From Chrysochromulina tobinii (Eukaryota > Haptophyta > Prymnesiales > Chrysochromulinaceae), in NCBI GenBank assembly GCA_001275005.1, contig JWZX01001440.1, positions 1 through 32,094 of the forward strand: DNA of 32,094 nucleotides. The letters run 5' to 3'. Shown in pieces: positions 4,161 to 27,979 of the stretch (positions are counted from its first letter, which is position 1; every line of letters begins with the position of its first letter). Made by a program: the position numbers and the translations under genes. The notes below the pieces were generated by a model. It did no database searches and was not told the DNA's origin. It saw nothing but the letters and a program-made list of their open reading frames with translations.

Positions 4161-4943
4161 TTAGTTGTCCTCGGCCTCGGATGTGCTCCCCTTGGCTGCC
4201 CTTGGCCGCCTGGCCGCCTTTTGCTTGTCTGCTGCCGCCGCCTTCTGCGCCTCGTCCGCCTTTTGCTCGGCCGCTGCCGCCGCCTTGTACGCCTCCGTCT
4301 TCTCTTGCTTGGCTGTTGCCGCCTCCTTCTGCGCCTCATCCGCCTTTTGCTTGGCCGCTGCCGCCTCCTTCTGCGCCTCCGTCTTCTCTTGCTTGGCTGC
4401 TGCCGCCTCCTTCTGCGCCTCCGTCTTCTCTTGCTTGGCTGCTGCCGCCTCCTTCTGCGCCTCGTCCACCTTTTGCTCGGCCGCTGCCGCCTCCTTCTGC
4501 GCCGCCTTCTGAGCATGGATCGCCCCAGCCGTCAAATTCTGGAGAATGGCCACCTCATTGGTCGACATTGCCAGCGCCAACTCCAGATCGATCCTTTTGT
4601 CGAATGCTTGCTTGAGCTCCTTCTGGGCAATGATCTTCCCCATTCGCATCTGAATCTCTTGAACGGCCATCTGAATCTCTTGAACGGCGTTGGGATTCGA
4701 GGCGACCATCGAGGTCGCGAGCACCAGGGAGCCCAAGACGACAAGCAGGATGCCGATGCAAGATTTGCTTCTGGAAGGCGCACCAACGCCGACATTCTGC
4801 TGCTCAGGGACCGGTTTAGCCGGCACTTTGTCCGCTTCGCCGTCGGTCGGGGGCGGCGCAACGCGTGATCGGACTTTCGAAGCACCGTCAGATTTGGGTG
4901 ACGACCGTGGCGGCGACTTGCTGCGTGAATGGGGCCCAGCCAT
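4161..4943 (-). CDS. Single-pass membrane protein with seven 14-residue coiled-coil repeats
   Basis: The 260-residue protein starts at the first ATG (4943). The cytosolic-type N-terminus (about 1-61) is rich in Ser, Pro, Arg and Lys. One membrane segment follows at about 62-82 (IGILLVVLGSLVLA). Next comes a 7-residue tandem duplication (AVQEIQM twice), a helical region, and seven consecutive 14-residue units of the type AQKEAAAAKQEKTE at about 148-245, ending in a basic then acidic tail. Fourteen residues is two heptads, so the array should form a long regular coiled coil or amphipathic helix; the composition also resembles group-3 LEA proteins. I recognise no named family. Structural or scaffolding roles are guesses. 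The lack of a cleavable signal favours a signal-anchor topology. Confidence 0.72.
   Translation of the reverse strand: MAGPHSRSKSPPRSSPKSDGASKVRSRVAPPPTDGEADKVPAKPVPEQQNVGVGAPSRSKSCIGILLVVLGSLVLATSMVASNPNAVQEIQMAVQEIQMRMGKIIAQKELKQAFDKRIDLELALAMSTNEVAILQNLTAGAIHAQKAAQKEAAAAEQKVDEAQKEAAAAKQEKTEAQKEAAAAKQEKTEAQKEAAAAKQKADEAQKEAATAKQEKTEAYKAAAAAEQKADEAQKAAAADKQKAARRPRAAKGSTSEAEDN
4209..4502 (-). repeat. Seven 42-bp coding tandem repeats
   Basis: 294 bp is exactly seven 42-bp units, each encoding AQKEAAAA(K/E)Q(E/K)xxE variants. Two adjacent units encode identical peptides, which suggests recent unequal exchange. Confidence 0.85.
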
Positions 4944-5460
4944 TGTGTGGGACACGCGAGCGAGGAGTCGATTGCACGATGAAACCCGGCCCAGAGGGGC
5001 CTTTTTTGACAAATTTGGGACAAACTCATGTAACGTCAATTTGCATCTCGGAAGACGATTCTTTGTCAATTTTGGGTTTCGAATAGGAAACTAGGCGCAG
5101 GATGCGCAGGAACTCTCACCCCCACTGCTAGCCTCGAGAGCACATTCGATAGGCTTCCGTTAGGTTGTCTGTTGTTTATGTAGTAACTGAACGCAGGAAG
5201 ACTCTCCACTCTCGATCACGCAGTCGTGAGCACTCTCCGCCTTACGAGCAATGAACCGTCTCGAACTTATGTCTCGCTCGCTTGTCCCTGCGGCTCTTCC
5301 AAGGGTCGTCTTCCCACAGACCGACGGAAGCAGTCGTCCATAGCCATTAATATTGGAGTGTCCTGTTTGGGGAGTTCCTCATCCGTGGGTTGGACACTCA
5401 TCACACCCCGGTGAGAACTGTGAACGCTCAGGCCTTAGACGAGGCGCGAGCGCGCGCGCG

Positions 5461-10323: not shown

Positions 10324-13313
10324 TCACAGCTCTTCTTCCTCCGTCTCCTGATCAGTCACACGCCCGTCGTCCTCGGGCGCGTCGACTTCCGCATCGGGAA
10401 GGCTCGCCGCCGCAGCCTCTGCCCGGTCTGAGAGCTGCTTGACCAGCGCTGGCGGGAAGGCGGTGGACTCGTACAGGATAGAGTGGCGCCTCTTGAGCAC
10501 GCCGGGCTGGTGCGTCGCCTGCCATCAAGAGCCATCAAGAGCCATCAAGAGCCATCAAGAGCCATCAAGAGCCATCAAGAGGCCATCAAGAGCTATCAAG
10601 AGCCATCAAGAGGCCATCAAGGTGGCGCACCTGGTCCGCCTTCTGGTAGCTCGCGCAGATGGTCGCCCAATCCAGATCCAAGCGCGGCCCGACGTAGACA
10701 GGGAACCGAGGATAACCGTTCTCCATCAGCTCGGTGAATCGGTAGGTCACGACCGAGCCGACGGGCGGTGGGCTCTTTCGGTCGTGATCGGTCAGACCCG
10801 AGCCGCATGAGAACTGGCGTCCGTCGGGCGTCTCGAGCGTGAGTGCACCTGTGCGGAAGGCAATCCGTTGCAATCAGTAGGAATCAGTTGCGATCAGCGG
10901 GCGTCTCGAGCGTGAGTGCACCTGTGCGGAATGAATTCTTGCCCGCGCCGCCCTCGTGACCCACCACCTTGGCCTCCTCATCCTTCTGACTTTTCACCTG
11001 GGGTCATCAAGCAAAATCAAGCGCAATCAACATCGATCGAATGCGATCAATGGCACTCAAGCGCACTCGAGCGCAATCAAGCGCAATGAAGAGCTCTAAT
11101 CACCTTGAGCAGTGCTTGCTCAATGCTCATACTGCAATCCAGTGCAATCAAGTGCACTCAAGCGCACTCAAGCGCACTCACCTTGAGCAGGTGCTTGCTC
11201 CGGCAGTGCTCATACTGCAATCCAGTGCACTCAAGTGCACTCAAGCGCACTCAAGCGCACTCACCTTGAGCAGGTGCTTGCTCCGGCAGTGCTCATACTT
11301 GGAGCCGGGCCGACGAAGCATCAGCCCCTCGCCCCCACAGGCCTCCACCTTCGCGAGCTCGGCGCTCACGTGCGCACGGCCGGTGCATGTGATCGCGCCG
11401 ACGGGCGCAGCGTATGGCGTGCCAACAGCGGGAATCGATGAACTGCTCGTGCCCGCGACGGCGCCGGTCGAGTGGCTTGTACCGGCCCCGCCGCCGCTGA
11501 CGGTTGATGCTGATGCTGATGCTGATGCTGATGCTGATGCTGGTGCTGCGATGGCAGGGGCAGGGGCGGGTGCTGCTGCGATGGCGGGGGAGGGGATGGG
11601 TTGGATGCAAGACTGTATGAACTTGAGCCGCTCCTCGTATGGCTTGTCGAGCGCAGGGGCATCGAAGACGAGGTACGTGACGTACTGCGCCCGAGATAAG
11701 GTCGGATGCAGTCAGAGGCAACATCTTCCAATCATCAGAGGTCCTCAGAGACAATGCAGTGGCCCTTAGTGGCACTCGGAAGCAATCATCAGCAATCAGT
11801 GGCAATCAGTGGCAATCAGTGGCCCTTAGTGGCACTCGGAAGCAATCATCGGCAATCACGGCTGCTCTCTCACCTGCCACAGGTCACCCGAGGAGGCGGA
11901 GCGAACAATGGAGAGGCAGCGACGGAACTGATGGCGTCCCGCCCACAGCTCGCCATCGAGGGGAGTCGAGGGCAGCCCTAGCTTGAACCACGCGGGCGCC
12001 GGAAACGCATTCCCATTACGCGAGTAGAAGTTGGTGCCGTCCCAATACCTGAAGAGTGAGGCAATCAGAGGTCATCGGAGGTCTCGTCAGAGGTCTCGTC
12101 AGAGTTCGATCTCGCCCCAGTACGCGCGCACGCCGTCGAGCTTCTCGGAGATCAGCCACCCAGTCGGATCCACCTTTTTCGCATCGTACTTGTCGGCGAG
12201 CATGACCTGAGTGGCCTCCGCGGCCGAGGCAGCGTTTGCGAGGACTTGCACCACCGGACCAGACCCTTTGGCTGCTAGGAGCGTAGCATGCATCGCGGCT
12301 CCTGGAGTCACCGGCCCGCCCGCCGCGGCGGCGCTTGCCGCCCAGATCGCCGCTGCCTTCGAGGGCGAGCCCTTGTGTGCCTTGGACGCGCCCGCAGGCT
12401 GTACAGGCAGATTGGCAGGGTCGATGAGGAGATAGGGCGTCACGTCAGGTGGAGCACCGAGGCGTACGGCCTCCTGCACGAAGCCCTCACTCACGACGAG
12501 CGTACCTGTGGGGAAGAGGGGCGCCGTGATGAGCACTTGCATGCAAGGCCTCCTCGGCAGAGCGTTGCGACCCTCAGTCACGACGAGCGTACCCTTGCGC
12601 ATGGCCTCGAGCACCTTGTTCGTCGGGTTGTCTGCCTCGGCGGCCGTCGTGATGAGGTGAGTCGTGTCGCGTGTCACGCCCTGCATGTTGACGGTGGCAC
12701 CTTGCGAGCGCAGCCATGCCCAGAACTGCTTGCGCACCATGGACATTTGGCCCGAGACGCACACCACCATCGAGCCCAAAGGCTTTCCGTGCGGCGGAGG
12801 AGGCAACGGTGCGGGCGGCAACGGTGCGGGCGGCAACGGTGCGGGCGGCAACGGTGCGAGCGGCAACGGTGCGGGCGGCAACGGTGCGGGCGGCACCGGC
12901 GCGGCCGCAGGAGGAGCAAGAACAGGATGAGGCGGCGGTGCTGGATGCGACGACGGCGCAGCTGCTGCGCACGATGCGTGGCTGTACGGGCACTTATCGC
13001 CATCCTTGCAGTATCCCTTGGCAAAGTGCTTGCAATGAACGGTCGCTGCACGCGGCTTCTTCGCGGGAGGCATTGCCGCTGCTGCGGGTGCCTGCTTCTG
13101 CCCCGTCAGCTGCTGGCGTCGCACAGAGCGGATGGTACCTGTCGATGTGTTTGTCTGCTTCATGTCCTGTAAGTCGATCATGTAGGTGCTGCCGGCCGCA
13201 TCGACTCTGACCGACTTCTCGCCGCGAAAGTGGGCTGCTTCCAGATGAGCGTTGTGCCCGCTGTCAAAGTTCTTCCACTTACCGTCGCTCAGCTCATATG
13301 CCCACTGCGCCAT
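10324..13313 (-). CDS. ATP-dependent DNA ligase with N-terminal WWE, CCCH zinc finger and BRCT domains (7 exons)
   Basis: Proposed exons: 13313-12593, 12505-12124, 12048-11874, 11684-11265, 10997-10922, 10848-10631, 10518-10324; 2187 nt, 728 residues, phases consistent. WWE domain 1-68 (QWAYELSDGKWKNF to TGTIRSVRR), a fold that binds ADP-ribose polymers. CCCH finger 94-112 (C-x7-C-x5-C-x3-H) after a basic PPAKKPRA. Pro-rich linker to about 175. BRCT from 181 (VVCVSGQM, THLITT, GTLVVSEGFVQEAV). Adenylation domain: motif I SEKLDG with the adenylated Lys at 362, motif III LDGELW, motif IV EGLMLR, motif V LLKVKSQ. OB domain: KSPPPVGSVVTYRF and RFPVYVG, as in compact bacterial/viral-type ligases. 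The tail is acidic (ETEEEEL). It seals nicked DNA, probably in the nucleus, and the WWE suggests recruitment to poly-ADP-ribosylated breaks. An Ala/Ser-rich insertion lies before motif IV. The gene is divergent from the 13454 gene, 140 bp apart. Confidence 0.9.
10519..10630 (-). other. Ligase intron 6 (112 bp), nearly all decamer repeat
   Basis: The donor is CAG|GTGCGCC and the acceptor GATGGCAG|GCGACG. It joins SYQKADQ to ATHQPGVLKRRHS, then the final exon to the TGA at 10324. The body is the decamer array listed separately. Confidence 0.82.
10521..10619. repeat. About ten copies of decamer gccatcaaga
   Basis: Six perfect 10-bp units at 10521-10580 are followed by about four variants (ggccatcaag, gctatcaaga). 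On the sense strand of the gene the unit reads TCTTGATGGC. Confidence 0.93.
10825..10931. repeat. Perfect 34-bp direct repeat, 73-bp period
   Basis: 10825-10858 and 10898-10931 are identical over 34 bp and contain AGGT on the minus strand. The 39-bp spacer is built of CTGAT(C/T)GCAA-like decamers. Confidence 0.92.
10849..10921 (-). other. Ligase intron 5 (73 bp) bounded by a perfect 34-bp repeat
   Basis: The splice sites lie at CACAG|GTGCACTC in each copy of the repeat, so the intron equals one repeat period. Splicing yields FRTGALTLETPDG; without it the frame meets TGA after ETPADRN. Confidence 0.8.
10998..11264 (-). other. Ligase intron 4 (267 bp) holding extra copies of the upstream exon end
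   Basis: The donor is CTCAAG|GTGAGTGCG and the acceptor ATGACCCCAG|GTGAAAAG. It joins LLK to VKSQKDEEAK (motif V). Two further copies of the exon end (YEHCRSKHLLK-coding) with their own AG before and GTGA after lie inside the intron. Confidence 0.82.
11104..11297 (-). repeat. Three tandem copies of an exon end plus splice donor
   Basis: Sense copies begin TATGAGCA(C/T)TG and end CTGCTCAAG: 11297-11265 (the coding copy), 11214-11182 (identical, 83-bp offset) and 11131-11104 (diverged, 5 bp shorter, 78-bp offset). The two downstream copies are each preceded by GGATTGCAG and followed by GTGA, so each could act as a small exon. Confidence 0.85.
11685..11873 (-). other. Ligase intron 3 (189 bp) with internal 60-bp duplication
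   Basis: The donor is CAG|GTGAGAG and the acceptor GGGCGCAG|TACGTC. It joins GDLWQ to YVTYLVFDAP. Inside, 11761-11797 repeats at 11821-11857 with a 60-bp offset, and ggcaatcagt decamers are present. Confidence 0.82.
12049..12123 (-). other. Ligase intron 2 (75 bp)
   Basis: It begins GTACTGGGGCGAG while the next exon begins GTATTGGGACGGC, a weaker duplication. Splicing joins DGVRA to YWDGTNFYSRNG across adenylation motif I. It contains a stop and tandem CCTCTGACGAGA units, and ends CTCTTCAG. Confidence 0.8.
12506..12592 (-). other. Ligase intron 1 (87 bp), starts with a copy of the next exon
   Basis: The sense strand begins GTACGCTCGTCGTGA and the following exon begins with the same bases; 22 of 23 positions match (12571-12593 vs 12484-12506). 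It ends CCCCACAG. It is a multiple of three without a stop, so retention would insert 29 residues into the BRCT domain and double GTLVV(T/S)EG. Splicing restores one copy. Confidence 0.7.
12806..12900. repeat. 15-bp coding repeat in the ligase Pro-rich linker
   Basis: ggtgcgggcggcaac units repeat in tandem and encode PLPPA repeats on the minus strand. Confidence 0.85.
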
Positions 13314-22668: not shown

Positions 22669-24129
22669 ATGATCGCGATGCTCATCAACTGTGTAGCGGA
22701 GAAGACCAACGCCCACAGCGATAAAATCAACTCGGTCACCTTTTCGCCCGATGGCACGAAGATCGTGTCGGGATCGGCTGACGGGACGATCAAAGTCTGG
22801 GATTCGGGTGCGCTGCGCCCTCAAATCGCCCTTTCTTGGCCAAAACTGACGCCTGTGTTGGCTTGCCTGGCAGACAAGCTCGAGTTGCTGAGCGAGAAGA
22901 CGAACGCCCACAGCGACTACATCACGTCAGTCGCGTTTTCCCCAGACGGGGCCAAGATTGCGTCGGGATCGTACGACAGGACGATCATAGTCTGGGAATC
23001 GGGTGCGCCGGAGCCCTCAAAATCGCCCCTCCTTGGCCAAAACTGACGCCTGCTGGCTTGTCTGGCAGACAAGCTGGAGCTGCTGAGCGAGAAGACGGTC
23101 GCCCACAGCGACTGCATCAACTCGGTGACGTTTTCACCGGACGGAACCAAGATCGTCTCGGGATCGCACGACGGGACGATCAAAGTCTGGGATTCGGGTG
23201 CGCCGCGAGCTCAAAATCGCCCCTCCTTGGCCAAAACTGACGCCTGCTGACTTGTCTGGCAGGCAAACTGGAGCTGCTGAGCGAGAAGACGAACGCCCAC
23301 CGCGGTGCCTTAAAGGCAGTCGCGTGGGTCGCGTTTTCCCCGGACGGGACCAAGATCGTGTCTGCATCGGACGACAAGACTATCAAAGTCTGGGATTCGG
23401 GTGTGCCGAAGCCCTTAAAATCGCCTCTCCTTGGCCATAAACTAACGCCTGTTGGCTTGTCTGACAGACAAACTGGAGCTGTTGAGCGAGAAGACGAACG
23501 CCCACAGCGACTGCATCATGGTGGCGTTTTCCCCGGACGGGACCAAGATCGTGTCAGGATCGTGGGACAAGACGATCAAAGTCTGGGAATCTGGTGCGCC
23601 GAAGCCCTCAAAATTGCCCCTCCTTGGCCAAAACTAACGCCTGTTGGCTTGTCTGGCAGGCAAGCTGGAGCTGCTGAGCGTGAAGATGAACGCACACAGC
23701 CAAGAAATCACGTCGGTGGCGTTTTCCCCGGACGGGACCAAGATTGTGTCCGGATCGGACGACCAGACGATCAAAATCTGGGATTCGGGTGCGCCGGAGC
23801 CCTCAAAATCGCCCCTCCTTGGCCAAATCTGACGCTAGCTGGCTTGTCTGGCAGGCGCATTGGAGCTGTTGAGCGAGAAGACGGTCGCCCACAGCGACTG
23901 GGTCATGTCGGTCGCGTTTTCCCCGGACGGGGCCAAGATTGTGTCCGGATCGTACGACGGGACGATTAAAGTCTGGGATATGGTCAAGTGGTCTCGCAAA
24001 GATCATTTGATGTTCAATGATACCACCCAGCGATTCGTCTTGCTGCTGCTGTGGCTGAACAAATACAGTATGAAGTTTCCGGATGATGTGCTTGATCTAC
24101 TCATCGAAACTTGCTTGCAAAGCAGTTGA
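22669..24129 (+). CDS. Seven-blade WD40 repeat protein built from exon-intron cassettes
   Basis: Proposed exons: 22669-22807, 22874-23002, 23069-23197, 23263-23400, 23468-23593, 23660-23788, 23855-24129; 354 residues. Each exon encodes one WD40 blade of the form [22 protein letters not shown]..IVSGSxDxTIKVW(D/E)S, with His in AHS, Asp in SPDG/SxD and terminal WD or WE. All six introns are phase 1 (G|GT...AG). The first blade lacks KLELLS; blade 4 carries a three-residue insertion (LKAVAWVAF). After blade 7 a 46-residue helical tail ends IETCLQSS. Seven blades suit a closed beta-propeller used for protein binding. Variation is concentrated after AHS and around SxDx, on the surface where WD40 propellers bind ligands. 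A longer N-terminus is possible through an exon at 22403. No effector domain such as NACHT is visible upstream. The blade calls are secure; exact splice sites are inferred. Confidence 0.88.
22808..23854 (+). repeat. Six near-identical 65-67 bp introns between WD40 exons
   Basis: Introns at 22808-22873, 23003-23068, 23198-23262, 23401-23467, 23594-23659 and 23789-23854. Each starts GTGCG or GTGTG, contains cttggcca, a branch-site-like CTGAC or CTAAC about 25 nt before the end, and ends (T/C)TG(G/A)CAG. Several carry in-frame stops, which supports splicing. Confidence 0.85.
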
Positions 24130-24544: not shown

Positions 24545-27500
24545 ATGAGGCGGCGGAAAATCAAAATTGGGTGGCCACGGCACGTTCAGATGAGTTTGGT
24601 GCACGAACGGAGGGCGGAGGCGAGGGTTGGTGCGCAGCTGATGCAGGCGCTGCAGGCGCAGGTGGTACAACTGACGAACCGTGTTTCTACCCTAGACGAA
24701 GCTCTCCTTGCCGAGCGTCGGGAAAACGAACAGCTGTCTCAAGAACGAGCAGAACGGCTTCGGGCGCAGGCGGAGGCGTCTGAGAACGCGTTGCGCGACC
24801 AGTTCCGAGCACTGTCGGCTCGGGTAGAAGCGCAAGTGGATCAAGGCGAGAAATCTCTTCGAGACTATCCTTCTCAGTTACGTGCCCAGGCGGACGCGTC
24901 GGAGGGGGTGCTCCGGCAGGAGATTGCGCGCCTGCGCTCGGAGGCAGCCGTTTCGCTCTCCGCCGCCAGCCCAAACTCGAGTCGTCCCCCGACTGTTGCG
25001 GAGCTGGGCCTCCGAGTGGAAGCGCTCAAGCAGTTGAAGGAGAGTGGCGTTCCAGCCTTCCCAGCTAAGGAACTTGGGTATACGCTCATGGAGCTACGGC
25101 TTGCAGGCTACTCGTTTGCGGAAGTGAGGCTCATACCCGGGTATACGCTCGCCGAGATCAAGGCCGTTGGGTACGTCGAGGGCCTCAAGGCGGCCGGGAT
25201 TAAGTGTGACGACGCCAAGGCGGCCGGCTACACGCTCGCCGAGATGAGAGCGGGTGGCTTCACGTGCGCCGATGCCAAGACGGCCGGCTACACGCTCGCC
25301 GAGATGAGAGCGGGTGGCTTCACGTGCGCCGACGCCAAGGCGGCCGGGTTCGTCGAGGGCCTCAAGGCGGCGGGCTTCACGTGCGTGGAGGCCAAGGCGG
25401 TCGGCTACACGCTTGCGGAGATGAGAGCGGATGGCTTCACGTGCGCTCAGGCCAAGATGGCCAGCTACACGCTCACAGAGATGAGGGCAGACGCATACAC
25501 GTGCCTCGAGGCGAAGACGGCCGGCTACACGCTTGAGGAGATGAGAGCGGGTGGCTACAACTGCGCCGAGGTCAAGGCGGCTGGCTACACATGTGTCGAA
25601 GCCAAGGCGGCGGGCTACACGCTCAAGGAAATGAGGGGCGCTGCGCCGGCCGCCGGGCCTGCTACCAGTGGCTTTTCATTCGGTGCGCCACCTGCATCCG
25701 CTGCGCCCGCTGTGCCCGCTGCGCCGGCGACGGGGGGCTTTTCGTTCACTGCGGTCGGCAACCCGCCTAGCACTCCGGTCACCGCGCCTGCTACCAGTGG
25801 GTTTTCATTCGGTGCGCCCGCTGCGCCCGCTGCGCCGGCTGCGCCGGCGACGGGTGGCTTTACGTTTACTGCGCTCGGCAACACGCCTTGCACGACGACC
25901 GCCGCGCCTGCTACAAGTGGCTTTTCATTTGCTGCGCCAGCAACAGTTGGCAAAGGACGAGGACGAGGACGAGGCACCAGCACGCCGGCCTCCGCGCCTG
26001 CTACAAGTGGGTTTTCATTCGGTGCGCCCGCTGTGCCAGCGACGGGTGGCTTATCATTTGCTGTAGTCGGCAGCCCGCCTGGCGACCAAGCAGGGCCTCG
26101 CCCGTCTTTCAAGGCAAAGCGGCCCGCAAAACCAGCCTTTGGCAGCCCCGCCGCCGGCTCTGGTTCACCGCCGGCACCAACCACTGGAACTCTGGCGGCG
26201 GCAGTCCCTTTGTCAAACGCCGCCCTGGAAAAGCTACACACGGCGGTGAAGGAGAACCAGTTGGCCGATGTGAAAACTCTGCTCGCCTCGGGCTCAAACC
26301 TAGTCAACATGGCTGATGACAACGGGATGACGGCACTCATCTGGGCTGCATCCAAGGGCCATGGTGAGATGGTCGGAGTCCTCCTCGAATTCGGCGCGGA
26401 CAAGAAAGCGGTGACGAAAAAGGGCAATAACGCACTGCAGGCAGCCAAAATGGGTCAAGAACAGGCTCCCGGCGACGCGCGTTTCGACCATGCTATCCGA
26501 ATTCTAGAAGCCCCGCCCGGACTCAAGCTCGAAGGTGGCTCGCTGCCAGGAAATGCGGCCAAATACGGTGGCACCTACAAGCTTGATCCGAGGAAGCTTG
26601 TAAACGGCCGGCCCGCGTATCAGCACACGAGCGATGCAACTTGCTGGATTGCGTTCGCTGGAGACCGCTGGATGGGGCTGCCTGAGTCGCTACTTGGTGA
26701 GAAGAAGGGCTTCCTGGACCTAACAGACTCAGCTGCTGCTTCGCCCGACGTGAGTGCCAAGACATGGAAGGTGAGCGGCAGAGCGGGCTCTGGTTGGGTT
26801 GAGGCGCCGCAGCTCAAGTGCACTGCTTGGACGCCGCCGCCGCCGCCACTCGCCGCCGAGCCCGTCGGTGCAATGGCTGGTAGTTCGGCGGGCTTTTACA
26901 CATGCGCCGAGGCCAAGACGGCAGGCTTCACGCTTACTGAGATGAGAACGAGCGGGTACACATGCGCCGACGCCAAGGCGGCCGGGTTCGTCGAGGGCCT
27001 CAAGGCGGCGGGGTTCACTTGCCTCGAGGTGAAGACGGTCGGCTACACGCTCGCGGAAATGAGAGTGGGTGGCTTCACATGCGCCGAGGTCAAGGCGGCC
27101 GGGTACGTCACGGGCCTCAAGGAGGCCGGCTACACGTGCCTCGAGGTGAAGGCGGCCGGCGGTGGCTTCACGTGCGCCGACGCCAAGGCGGCCGGGTTCG
27201 TCGAGGGCCTCAAGGCGGCGGGGTTCACTTGCCTCGAGGTGAAGACGGTCGGCTACACGCTCGCGGAGATGAGAGTGGGTGGCTTCACATGCGCCGAGGT
27301 CAAGGCGGCCGGGTACGTCACGGGCCTCAAGGAGGCGAGCTACACGTGCCTCGAGGCGAAGGCGGCCGGCTACACGCTCGCAGGGATGAGAGCAGGCGGA
27401 TACAATAGCACCGAGGTCAAGGCGGCCGGCTACACACTTGCGGAGATGAGAGTGGGAGGGTACACCGAGGGCCTCAAGGCGCTCGGCTACACGTGCGCCG

Positions 27501-27979
27501 AGGCGAAGGCGGCCGGGTACGTCATGGGCCTCAAGGAGGCGGGCTACACATGCGCGGAGGCCAAGGCAGGCAATTACACGTGCGCTCAGGTCAAGATGGC
27601 AGGGTATACGCTCGCAGAGATGAGAGCAGCCGGCTTCACGTGCGCCGAGGCGAAGGCGGCCGGGTTCAATCCCAAGGAGTCCATGCAGGCTGGCTTCACC
27701 TACCAAGAGGGGCTTGCGGTGGGTTATCCTTCCCATATCGATGGCCATCCTACCAATGTTACGTCGTGGAACTTCGGTATGCAACCACCGCGACTCGAAT
27801 CGACGATCTCCCTCCCCGCGCTCCCACCGCCTCCGCGCGCGCGCCCCTCAGTCCAGCGTCCAATGAGGCGGGCCGCGGCGCTGCGTGCGGCCCGCGCCCT
27901 GCGTGCGGCTTGCTGGCGTAGTGACCCTTGCTGCAGACTCACGCCCGCTCGTGTGCGCGCATGGCGCAGGGGTTTATGA
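24545..27979 (+). CDS. Mosaic protein: coiled coil, decapeptide repeats, FxFG repeats, ankyrin repeats, more decapeptide repeats
   Basis: 1144 residues from the ATG at 24545. A coiled coil spans about 35-150. Block 1 of decapeptide repeats (about 176-365) has units such as AGYTLAEMRA and GGFTCADAKA; the second type resembles AGF/AGY-x-x-x-E-L/A-K decapeptides found in many protist proteins, function unknown. An Ala/Pro-rich region (about 366-540) carries GFSFGAP/GGFSFTA elements, the FxFG signature of nuclear-pore proteins. Ankyrin repeats lie at about 557-645 (NGMTALIWAASKGHGEMVGVLLEFGAD). A compact unnamed domain lies near 663-762 (YGGTYKLD, NGRPAYQH, WIAFAGDRWMG). Block 2 of decapeptides spans about 783-1062, then a Pro/Arg-rich tail of uncertain reality. 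It could be a pore-associated or scaffold protein; this is inference. One continuous frame links all parts. Confidence 0.8.
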   Translation: MRRRKIKIGWPRHVQMSLVHERRAEARVGAQLMQALQAQVVQLTNRVSTLDEALLAERRENEQLSQERAERLRAQAEASENALRDQFRALSARVEAQVDQGEKSLRDYPSQLRAQADASEGVLRQEIARLRSEAAVSLSAASPNSSRPPTVAELGLRVEALKQLKESGVPAFPAKELGYTLMELRLAGYSFAEVRLIPGYTLAEIKAVGYVEGLKAAGIKCDDAKAAGYTLAEMRAGGFTCADAKTAGYTLAEMRAGGFTCADAKAAGFVEGLKAAGFTCVEAKAVGYTLAEMRADGFTCAQAKMASYTLTEMRADAYTCLEAKTAGYTLEEMRAGGYNCAEVKAAGYTCVEAKAAGYTLKEMRGAAPAAGPATSGFSFGAPPASAAPAVPAAPATGGFSFTAVGNPPSTPVTAPATSGFSFGAPAAPAAPAAPATGGFTFTALGNTPCTTTAAPATSGFSFAAPATVGKGRGRGRGTSTPASAPATSGFSFGAPAVPATGGLSFAVVGSPPGDQAGPRPSFKAKRPAKPAFGSPAAGSGSPPAPTTGTLAAAVPLSNAALEKLHTAVKENQLADVKTLLASGSNLVNMADDNGMTALIWAASKGHGEMVGVLLEFGADKKAVTKKGNNALQAAKMGQEQAPGDARFDHAIRILEAPPGLKLEGGSLPGNAAKYGGTYKLDPRKLVNGRPAYQHTSDATCWIAFAGDRWMGLPESLLGEKKGFLDLTDSAAASPDVSAKTWKVSGRAGSGWVEAPQLKCTAWTPPPPPLAAEPVGAMAGSSAGFYTCAEAKTAGFTLTEMRTSGYTCADAKAAGFVEGLKAAGFTCLEVKTVGYTLAEMRVGGFTCAEVKAAGYVTGLKEAGYTCLEVKAAGGGFTCADAKAAGFVEGLKAAGFTCLEVKTVGYTLAEMRVGGFTCAEVKAAGYVTGLKEASYTCLEAKAAGYTLAGMRAGGYNSTEVKAAGYTLAEMRVGGYTEGLKALGYTCAEAKAAGYVMGLKEAGYTCAEAKAGNYTCAQVKMAGYTLAEMRAAGFTCAEAKAAGFNPKESMQAGFTYQEGLAVGYPSHIDGHPTNVTSWNFGMQPPRLESTISLPALPPPPRARPSVQRPMRRAAALRAARALRAACWRSDPCCRLTPARVRAWRRGL
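25076..25640 (+). repeat. Decapeptide-coding 30-bp repeat array, block 1
   Basis: Roughly nineteen 30-bp units encoding (A/G)G(Y/F)(T/S)(L/C)(A/x)(E/D)(M/A)(R/K)(A/T). The block 2 array lies at about 26895-27730. Confidence 0.85.
26963..27370 (+). repeat. Recent 210-bp tandem duplication within decapeptide block 2
   Basis: 26963-27160 and 27173-27370 are almost identical (including gttcgtcgagggcctcaagg and ggtcggctacacgctcgcgg) with a 210-bp offset, equal to 70 residues or seven decapeptides. Confidence 0.88.

Follow-up and report, generated by a model that had tools for sequence, protein, structure and literature searches.

A DNA ligase intron of Chrysochromulina tobinii composed of a duplicated exon segment and a piece of a genome-wide repeat family

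The origin of spliceosomal introns is an old question with few clear cases. It is raised by a DNA ligase gene of the haptophyte Chrysochromulina tobinii, where one intron equals exactly one period of a direct repeat of exon sequence. The window, i.e., the whole stretch of DNA analyzed here, is 32,094 nucleotides (nt) of contig JWZX01001440.1 (GenBank assembly GCA_001275005.1; contig C572 of the 53.15-Mb assembly, which has 2,253 contigs). The minus-strand gene spans 13313-10324 and encodes an ATP-dependent DNA ligase with WWE, CCCH, BRCT, ligase, and OB domains, as assigned by Pfam on the spliced protein. How did its fourth intron arise? Intron 4 is probably a piece of a genome-wide repeat family that was inserted into the exon, with a 34-bp exon stretch duplicated around the insert.

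10922..10997, minus strand: ligase exon 4 (alignment)
10898..10931, minus strand: first 34-bp copy, made up of the exon 4 end TTCCGCACAG and the first 24 nt of intron 4
10849..10921, minus strand: ligase intron 4, 73 nt, exactly one repeat period (repeats, alignment)
10859..10897, minus strand: 39-nt insert between the 34-bp copies, four 10-bp units of the CTGATTGCNN family
10825..10858, minus strand: second 34-bp copy, made up of the intron 4 end TTCCGCACAG and the exon 5 start
10631..10848, minus strand: ligase exon 5, OB domain (Pfam, alignment)

The repeat, the insert, and the reading frame of intron 4

The two copies of the repeat, at 10825-10858 and 10898-10931, match at all 34 bp, lie 73 bp apart, and have mismatches on both sides. 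A repeat finder scores the same pair as 41 nt at 93%, again with a spacing of 73. A chance origin of the repeat is ruled out by its identity, its spacing, and its 25-nt core, which is found at these two places only in the whole 53-Mb assembly. Read on the minus strand, both copies are TTCCGCACAG|GTGCACTCACGCTCGAGACGCCCG. The GT of copy 1 and the AG of copy 2 delimit a 73-nt intron (10921-10849).

Without splicing, the ligase frame reads FRTGALTLETPADRN and stops nine codons past FRTGAL. With intron 4 removed, it reads FRTGALTLETPDGRQFSCGSGL, and 23 of 24 aligned relatives show no gap at the junction. The first-pass annotation of this DNA had described the identical repeat, the interrupted unspliced frame, the conserved ligase sequence restored by removing one period, and an AGGT in each copy (CACAG|GTGC) able to supply both splice sites; all of this is borne out. 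The exception among the relatives is P0019, a metagenome protein that diverges after GAL, right after FRTGAL and at the position of intron 4. P0019 may read into an intron at this site, in which case intron 4 would be older than the species split.

Originally proposed to have been born by tandem duplication of exon alone, intron 4 is in fact more than half non-exon sequence (39 of 73 nt). The stretch between the copies, CTGATCGCAACTGATTCCTACTGATTGCAACGGATTGCC, matches the ligase coding sequence at 20/39 positions, no better than its shuffles (mean 19.5, maximum 24). It matches the period-10 consensus CTGATTGCNN at 29 of 32 informative positions, and none of 20,000 shuffles reaches this value (maximum 21). 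The insert opens with a CTGATCGC unit and has four units. Only one other stretch of the window, inside ligase intron 2, scores as high for the consensus. Plain tandem duplication as the origin is ruled out, as the copies are not adjacent and the gap between them is family sequence.

An assembly error, or a frame-shifted gene without splicing, is extremely improbable. A slip in assembly would not place a 39-nt family insert between the copies, and related 10-bp units also occur in the other four ligase introns, whose junctions are clean. Of 598 candidates in the assembly, 40 were scored, and none of these is a second ligase copy, whether intron-bearing or intronless.

The repeat family and its exon duplications

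The 10-bp units belong to a family that is spread through the assembly. Three tandem TTGATTGCNN units occur 134 times (0 for the reversed pattern), and TGATTGC units paired at a distance of 0-20 nt number 7,610 (13 for the control). Units in the sampled loci are most often spaced by 10 (196 cases), then by 20 (40) and 11 (35). Many arrays are closed by a shared 3' end, TGATTGCNNCCCTCATCAG, with 1,342 exact copies in 53 Mb against 0 for the control, or 1,364 with a spacer of 0-6. GT directly follows 899 of the 1,342 copies. The family has possible short inverted ends, CTGAT...ATCAG, recognized by eye, and the samples suggest that its individual copies lie in introns. In a 257-billion-base prokaryote collection, the 3'-end pattern matches 23 stretches, which are taken as chance and used as background. 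Viral contigs contain two such stretches, without arrays and likewise taken as chance, and the P0001 query of the viral contigs found no related locus.

Two samples were used to examine the flanks of family members. The array set is drawn from loci L003-L034 and the window and contains, after deduplication, 95 arrays of three or more units. Loci L003-L022 were picked for strict arrays and make up most of the set, L023-L030 are eight arbitrary 6-kb pieces, and L032-L034 come from the search for a second ligase copy. Arrays less than 130 bp from a locus end and then left-flank duplicates were excluded, reducing 105 arrays to 95. The terminus set is made up of 66 usable termini selected by their 3' end only, from 58 of the 60 fetched loci (L035-L094, taken from the first 100 listed places of the 3'-terminus search). 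Termini too near a locus end or duplicated were excluded, and two of the 60 loci yielded none. Repeat units were masked in the flank search of the array set and unmasked in the exon-copy search of the terminus set.

In the array set, the best flank-to-flank direct repeat scores at least 14 in 45 of 95 arrays, compared with 2 of 475 swapped-flank controls. A score of at least 20 is reached by 32 arrays and by no control. These rows are partly dependent; grouping within 400 bp gives 34 of 60 clusters, at 19 loci. The duplications reach 55 bp, and the exon copy adjoins the first repeat unit with zero gap in 21 of the 45 cases (3 of 206 control matches).

In the terminus set, 32 of 66 cases start with sequence copied from the downstream exon and anchored at the 3' splice site, compared with 4 of 644 swapped controls. 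The similarity stops no more than 6 nt past the 3' end of the insert in 28 of the 32, all at different loci, so the boundary of the duplication is set by the insert. These 28 are the primary cases; the remaining four look like later whole-unit duplications. The duplicated exon of the primary cases is 12-44 bp long (median 20.5), and the insert is 19-97 nt. An unmasked range of 14-51 bp is too long because the matched length includes repeat units in 4 of the 28 copies, and the exon-only range is used here. Three inserts are just 19-20 nt, running from TGAT to CAG; the matched copies of two of these, L044 and L094, themselves continue into repeat units.

Because exon copy and repeat family recur together at many other places, an exon-only origin of intron 4 is unsupported. 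The further claim that the event was very recent is overstated. Identity at 34 of 34 positions limits the divergence of the copies to about 8.4% (95%) and no further, and perfect exon copies are also found in 9 of the 28 primary cases. Gene conversion between the copies could hold the 34-bp repeats alike.

Contigs C101 and C235 (loci L006 and L010) are nearly identical over ~3 kb (99.8%), with a 72-bp difference in array length. They otherwise differ only in unshared ends and one single-base gap, and the pair offers no presence/absence case. The assembly contains some duplicate or allelic contigs. On the minus strand of L010, an exon piece is repeated several times in a row at 4764-5018, with arrays separating the slightly different copies.

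Predicted splicing and the proposed origin

An exact one-period GT..AG intron is available on the sense strand for 23 of the 45 array-set repeats (7 antisense) and for 25 of the 32 terminus-set repeats (4 antisense). Assigned by first qualifying position, the splice sites follow three routes. Both sites lie inside the exon copy, as in ligase intron 4, in 12 array-set and 7 terminus-set cases. The exon copy gives the GT and the insert gives the AG in 3 and 17 cases, respectively. The exon copy gives the AG and the insert gives the GT in 8 and 1.

Reading frames support the predicted splicing of these one-period introns. A codon-usage score trained on open reading frames (ORFs) of the window was applied to the 48 exact-period cases. 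The same best frame is observed on both sides of the predicted spliced junction in 35 of 48, where chance gives 16; the shifted frames account for 2 and 11. All nine cases that score strongly on both sides agree. Agreement is 23/28 for periods not divisible by 3, which require splicing to keep the frame, and 12/20 for periods divisible by 3. The sense strand is favored in 38 of 48.

In the proposed origin, a short piece of the family, with its CTGATTGC-type 10-bp units, would have entered the ligase exon, and a 34-bp exon stretch would have been duplicated on both sides. The duplicated stretch happens to hold CACAG|GTGC and would give the donor from copy 1 and the acceptor from copy 2, with candidate branch points provided by the insert. 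CTGAT and TTGAT fit the yUnAy form of a branch point, so an insert of even 19-20 nt could carry both a branch point and an acceptor. The ligase protein would be unchanged because splicing would excise exactly one copy and the insert. A shift of the splice position to any other offset within the repeat would leave the mRNA identical. The same process probably generated many other introns of this genome. In the commonest form of the terminus sample, the acceptor would lie on the insert (CCCTCATCAG), and the duplicated exon would give the GT only. Where the exon at the cut starts with GT or holds AGGT, one period would be spliced out and the insertion would be silent. Silent insertions would then be kept by selection, and the arrays would later change in length, as the two near-identical contigs suggest.

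A number of observations weigh against this origin. No clear duplication is found at threshold in 34 of the 66 terminus copies, for which decay with age is one explanation. The exon copy has no initial GT in 7 of the 28 primary cases, and an exact-period GT..AG is missing in 22 of the 45 array-set repeats. The best frame is lost across 13 of the 48 junctions, and the antisense strand scores higher in 10. The focal insert is without the family end CCCTCATCAG, so its place in the family is read from the 10-bp units alone. Across the eight arbitrary pieces (48 kb), just one array of three or more units is present, so the statistics are drawn mostly from loci selected for the family. DNA transposons, moreover, do not usually leave duplications of such length and variability.

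The order of events bears on the model of Rogers, restated in a potato study (PMC4974935), in which AGGT of a duplicated exon segment gives both GT and AG. Applied to intron 4, an AGGT-bearing exon segment would have been tandemly duplicated, and the family insert would have been added between the copies later. As in that model, AGGT lies inside the duplicated 34 bp, one period would be excised, and the peptide would be unchanged; the first route shows both sites within the repeat at other loci as well. Unlike the model, the copies flank a foreign 39-nt insert, and intron 4 is not wholly duplicated exon. The copies are not adjacent, and many other places show the same insert-bearing arrangement. 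Nor would a random insertion at a later time produce the zero gap between exon copy and first unit in 21 of 45 cases. This order is very improbable.

Insertion with duplication of the exon, the preferred origin, could itself proceed in several ways. The defined ends CTGAT...ATCAG suit a small DNA element, and target-primed reverse transcription or staggered-break repair would fit the long, variable duplications. Break repair would capture a pre-existing intron or repeat fragment, the fill-in of overhangs would produce the duplication, and the family would be the usual filler and itself immobile. Intron gains in Daphnia likewise have exon-derived direct repeats at both intron ends (PMC4202315). 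Variable overhangs account for duplications of 12-44 bp better than a fixed transposase cut. However, the Daphnia repeats are just 4-12 bp, shorter than those observed here, and here the filler is one common family. A random filler would share neither a 3' end in 1,342 exact copies nor starts at unit boundaries. Such repair with an immobile family is unlikely.

An RNA route is a rather more doubtful possibility. Here, a nicked exon would receive reverse-transcribed intron RNA, possibly the part of the lariat between branch point and AG (the lariat tail), with the donor given by the duplication. This fits the common 3' end at AG (a product of sample selection), the 17 donors taken from an exon copy among the 25 exact-period terminus-set cases, the three inserts that run from TGAT to CAG, the long and variable duplications, and the inserts that begin right at a unit in 21 of 45 array cases. 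However, both ends of the insert look defined, CTGAT/ATCAG may represent a short inverted repeat, which would fit a DNA element equally well, and the 10-bp arrays are left unexplained.

A specific form of this route, that introns multiply by copying their own 3' ends, is more speculative still. The stretch from branch point to AG, down to 19-20 nt, would be written into a cut exon, and the exon duplication of ~12-44 bp would give the donor. If so, an exon site with GT at the cut would turn into a silent intron, and each insert would add CTGAT units that later expand as a 10-bp array. Introns would then multiply from the lariat tail and not by a transposon.

The family works like an introner. 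As in introners (PMC9860276), many similar introns are found in one genome, a target duplication donates one or both splice sites, and the mRNA is predicted to be unchanged. The short inverted ends seen by eye are possibly a further likeness. The survey gives target duplications of 3-9 bp in some earlier families, compared here with 12-44 bp in the 28 primary cases and a maximum of 55 bp in the array set. The body of the present family is a variable array of 10-bp units, and some inserts are just 19-20 nt, unlike introners. A Chrysochromulina sp. introner family in the same survey carries its own 5' splice site, shows no inverted repeats, and has duplications of 4 bp. No description of the present repeat family was found in the open-access literature, supplements excluded, and one may be present in the supplement of PMC9860276.

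Introner elements of Amoebophrya (PMC7789003) are also repeated introns with direct and inverted repeats; their direct repeats are 3-5 nt, their inverted repeats are 8-20 nt, and the introns are non-canonical. Rogers and Bendich (PMC11782384) describe repeats of 4-30 bp near splice sites (mean 11.4) in several intron classes.

This genome offers a large set of introns, many with what appears to be a birth scar, i.e., an exon copy, an insert of one family, and a simple splice-site rule. About half of the same-family intron sample looks built in this way, which makes this genome suitable for studying how introns are born. Two models, AGGT tandem duplication and introner insertion, are usually kept apart. 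The present introns bridge them, because the same duplication yields the first when the exon copy provides the AG and the second when the insert does.

Other introns of the ligase gene and other window features

The remaining exons and introns of the ligase gene are as follows.

12124..13313, minus strand: ligase exon 1, with WWE, CCCH zinc finger, BRCT, and the start of the ligase domain (ORF, Pfam, junction alignment)
12049..12123, minus strand: ligase intron 1, 75 nt (alignment of relatives)
11874..12048, minus strand: ligase exon 2 (alignment)
11685..11873, minus strand: ligase intron 2, 189 nt, with TGATTGC units and no clear exon duplication (alignment, unit map)
11265..11684, minus strand: ligase exon 3 (alignment)
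10998..11264, minus strand: ligase intron 3, 267 nt, with 83-bp tandem units (repeats, alignment)
10519..10630, minus strand: ligase intron 5, 112 nt, mainly an array of CTTGATGGCT units (repeats, alignment)
10324..10518, minus strand: ligase exon 6 to the stop codon (frame, alignment)

All five junctions are consistent with the alignment of the 24 relatives; some relatives have small gaps close to junctions 3 and 5. Among the matches listed, the top species-named relative is a Prymnesium parvum protein (59% identity). The BRCT score is slightly below the Pfam cut-off.

Intron 1 has the 3' end CTGATTGCCTCACTCTTCAG, which is near the family 3' end TGATTGCNNCCCTCATCAG. Its 5' start GTACTGGGG weakly resembles the downstream exon GTATTGGGA (9/13 by eye). 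In intron 3, the 83-bp unit (window positions 11100-11299) is composed of 33 nt of exon end, i.e., 11 codons in frame encoding YEHCRSKHLLK, and a 50-nt array of five 10-bp units. Because the tandem unit is the sum of these two parts, the exon-plus-array unit has itself been duplicated. A third exon copy is degenerate.

The GC content along the window is 0.58-0.71, and Rfam and tRNA scans of the window gave no matches. A second window gene has an apparent GC-AG intron (30342-30126, minus strand; GCAAGT...ATACAG), with boundaries placed by eye. Within this intron are an array of TTGATTGCCC and a direct repeat of 20 bp, and its removal would join TMMQ to ARVEYELEM. On the plus strand, 195-bp tandem repeats at 22699-23979 encode blocks that are WD40-like as named by eye. 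A long plus-strand ORF at 24545-27979 is made up of AGYTLAEMRAGGFTC-type repeats and contains a 210-bp unit duplicated at 97%.

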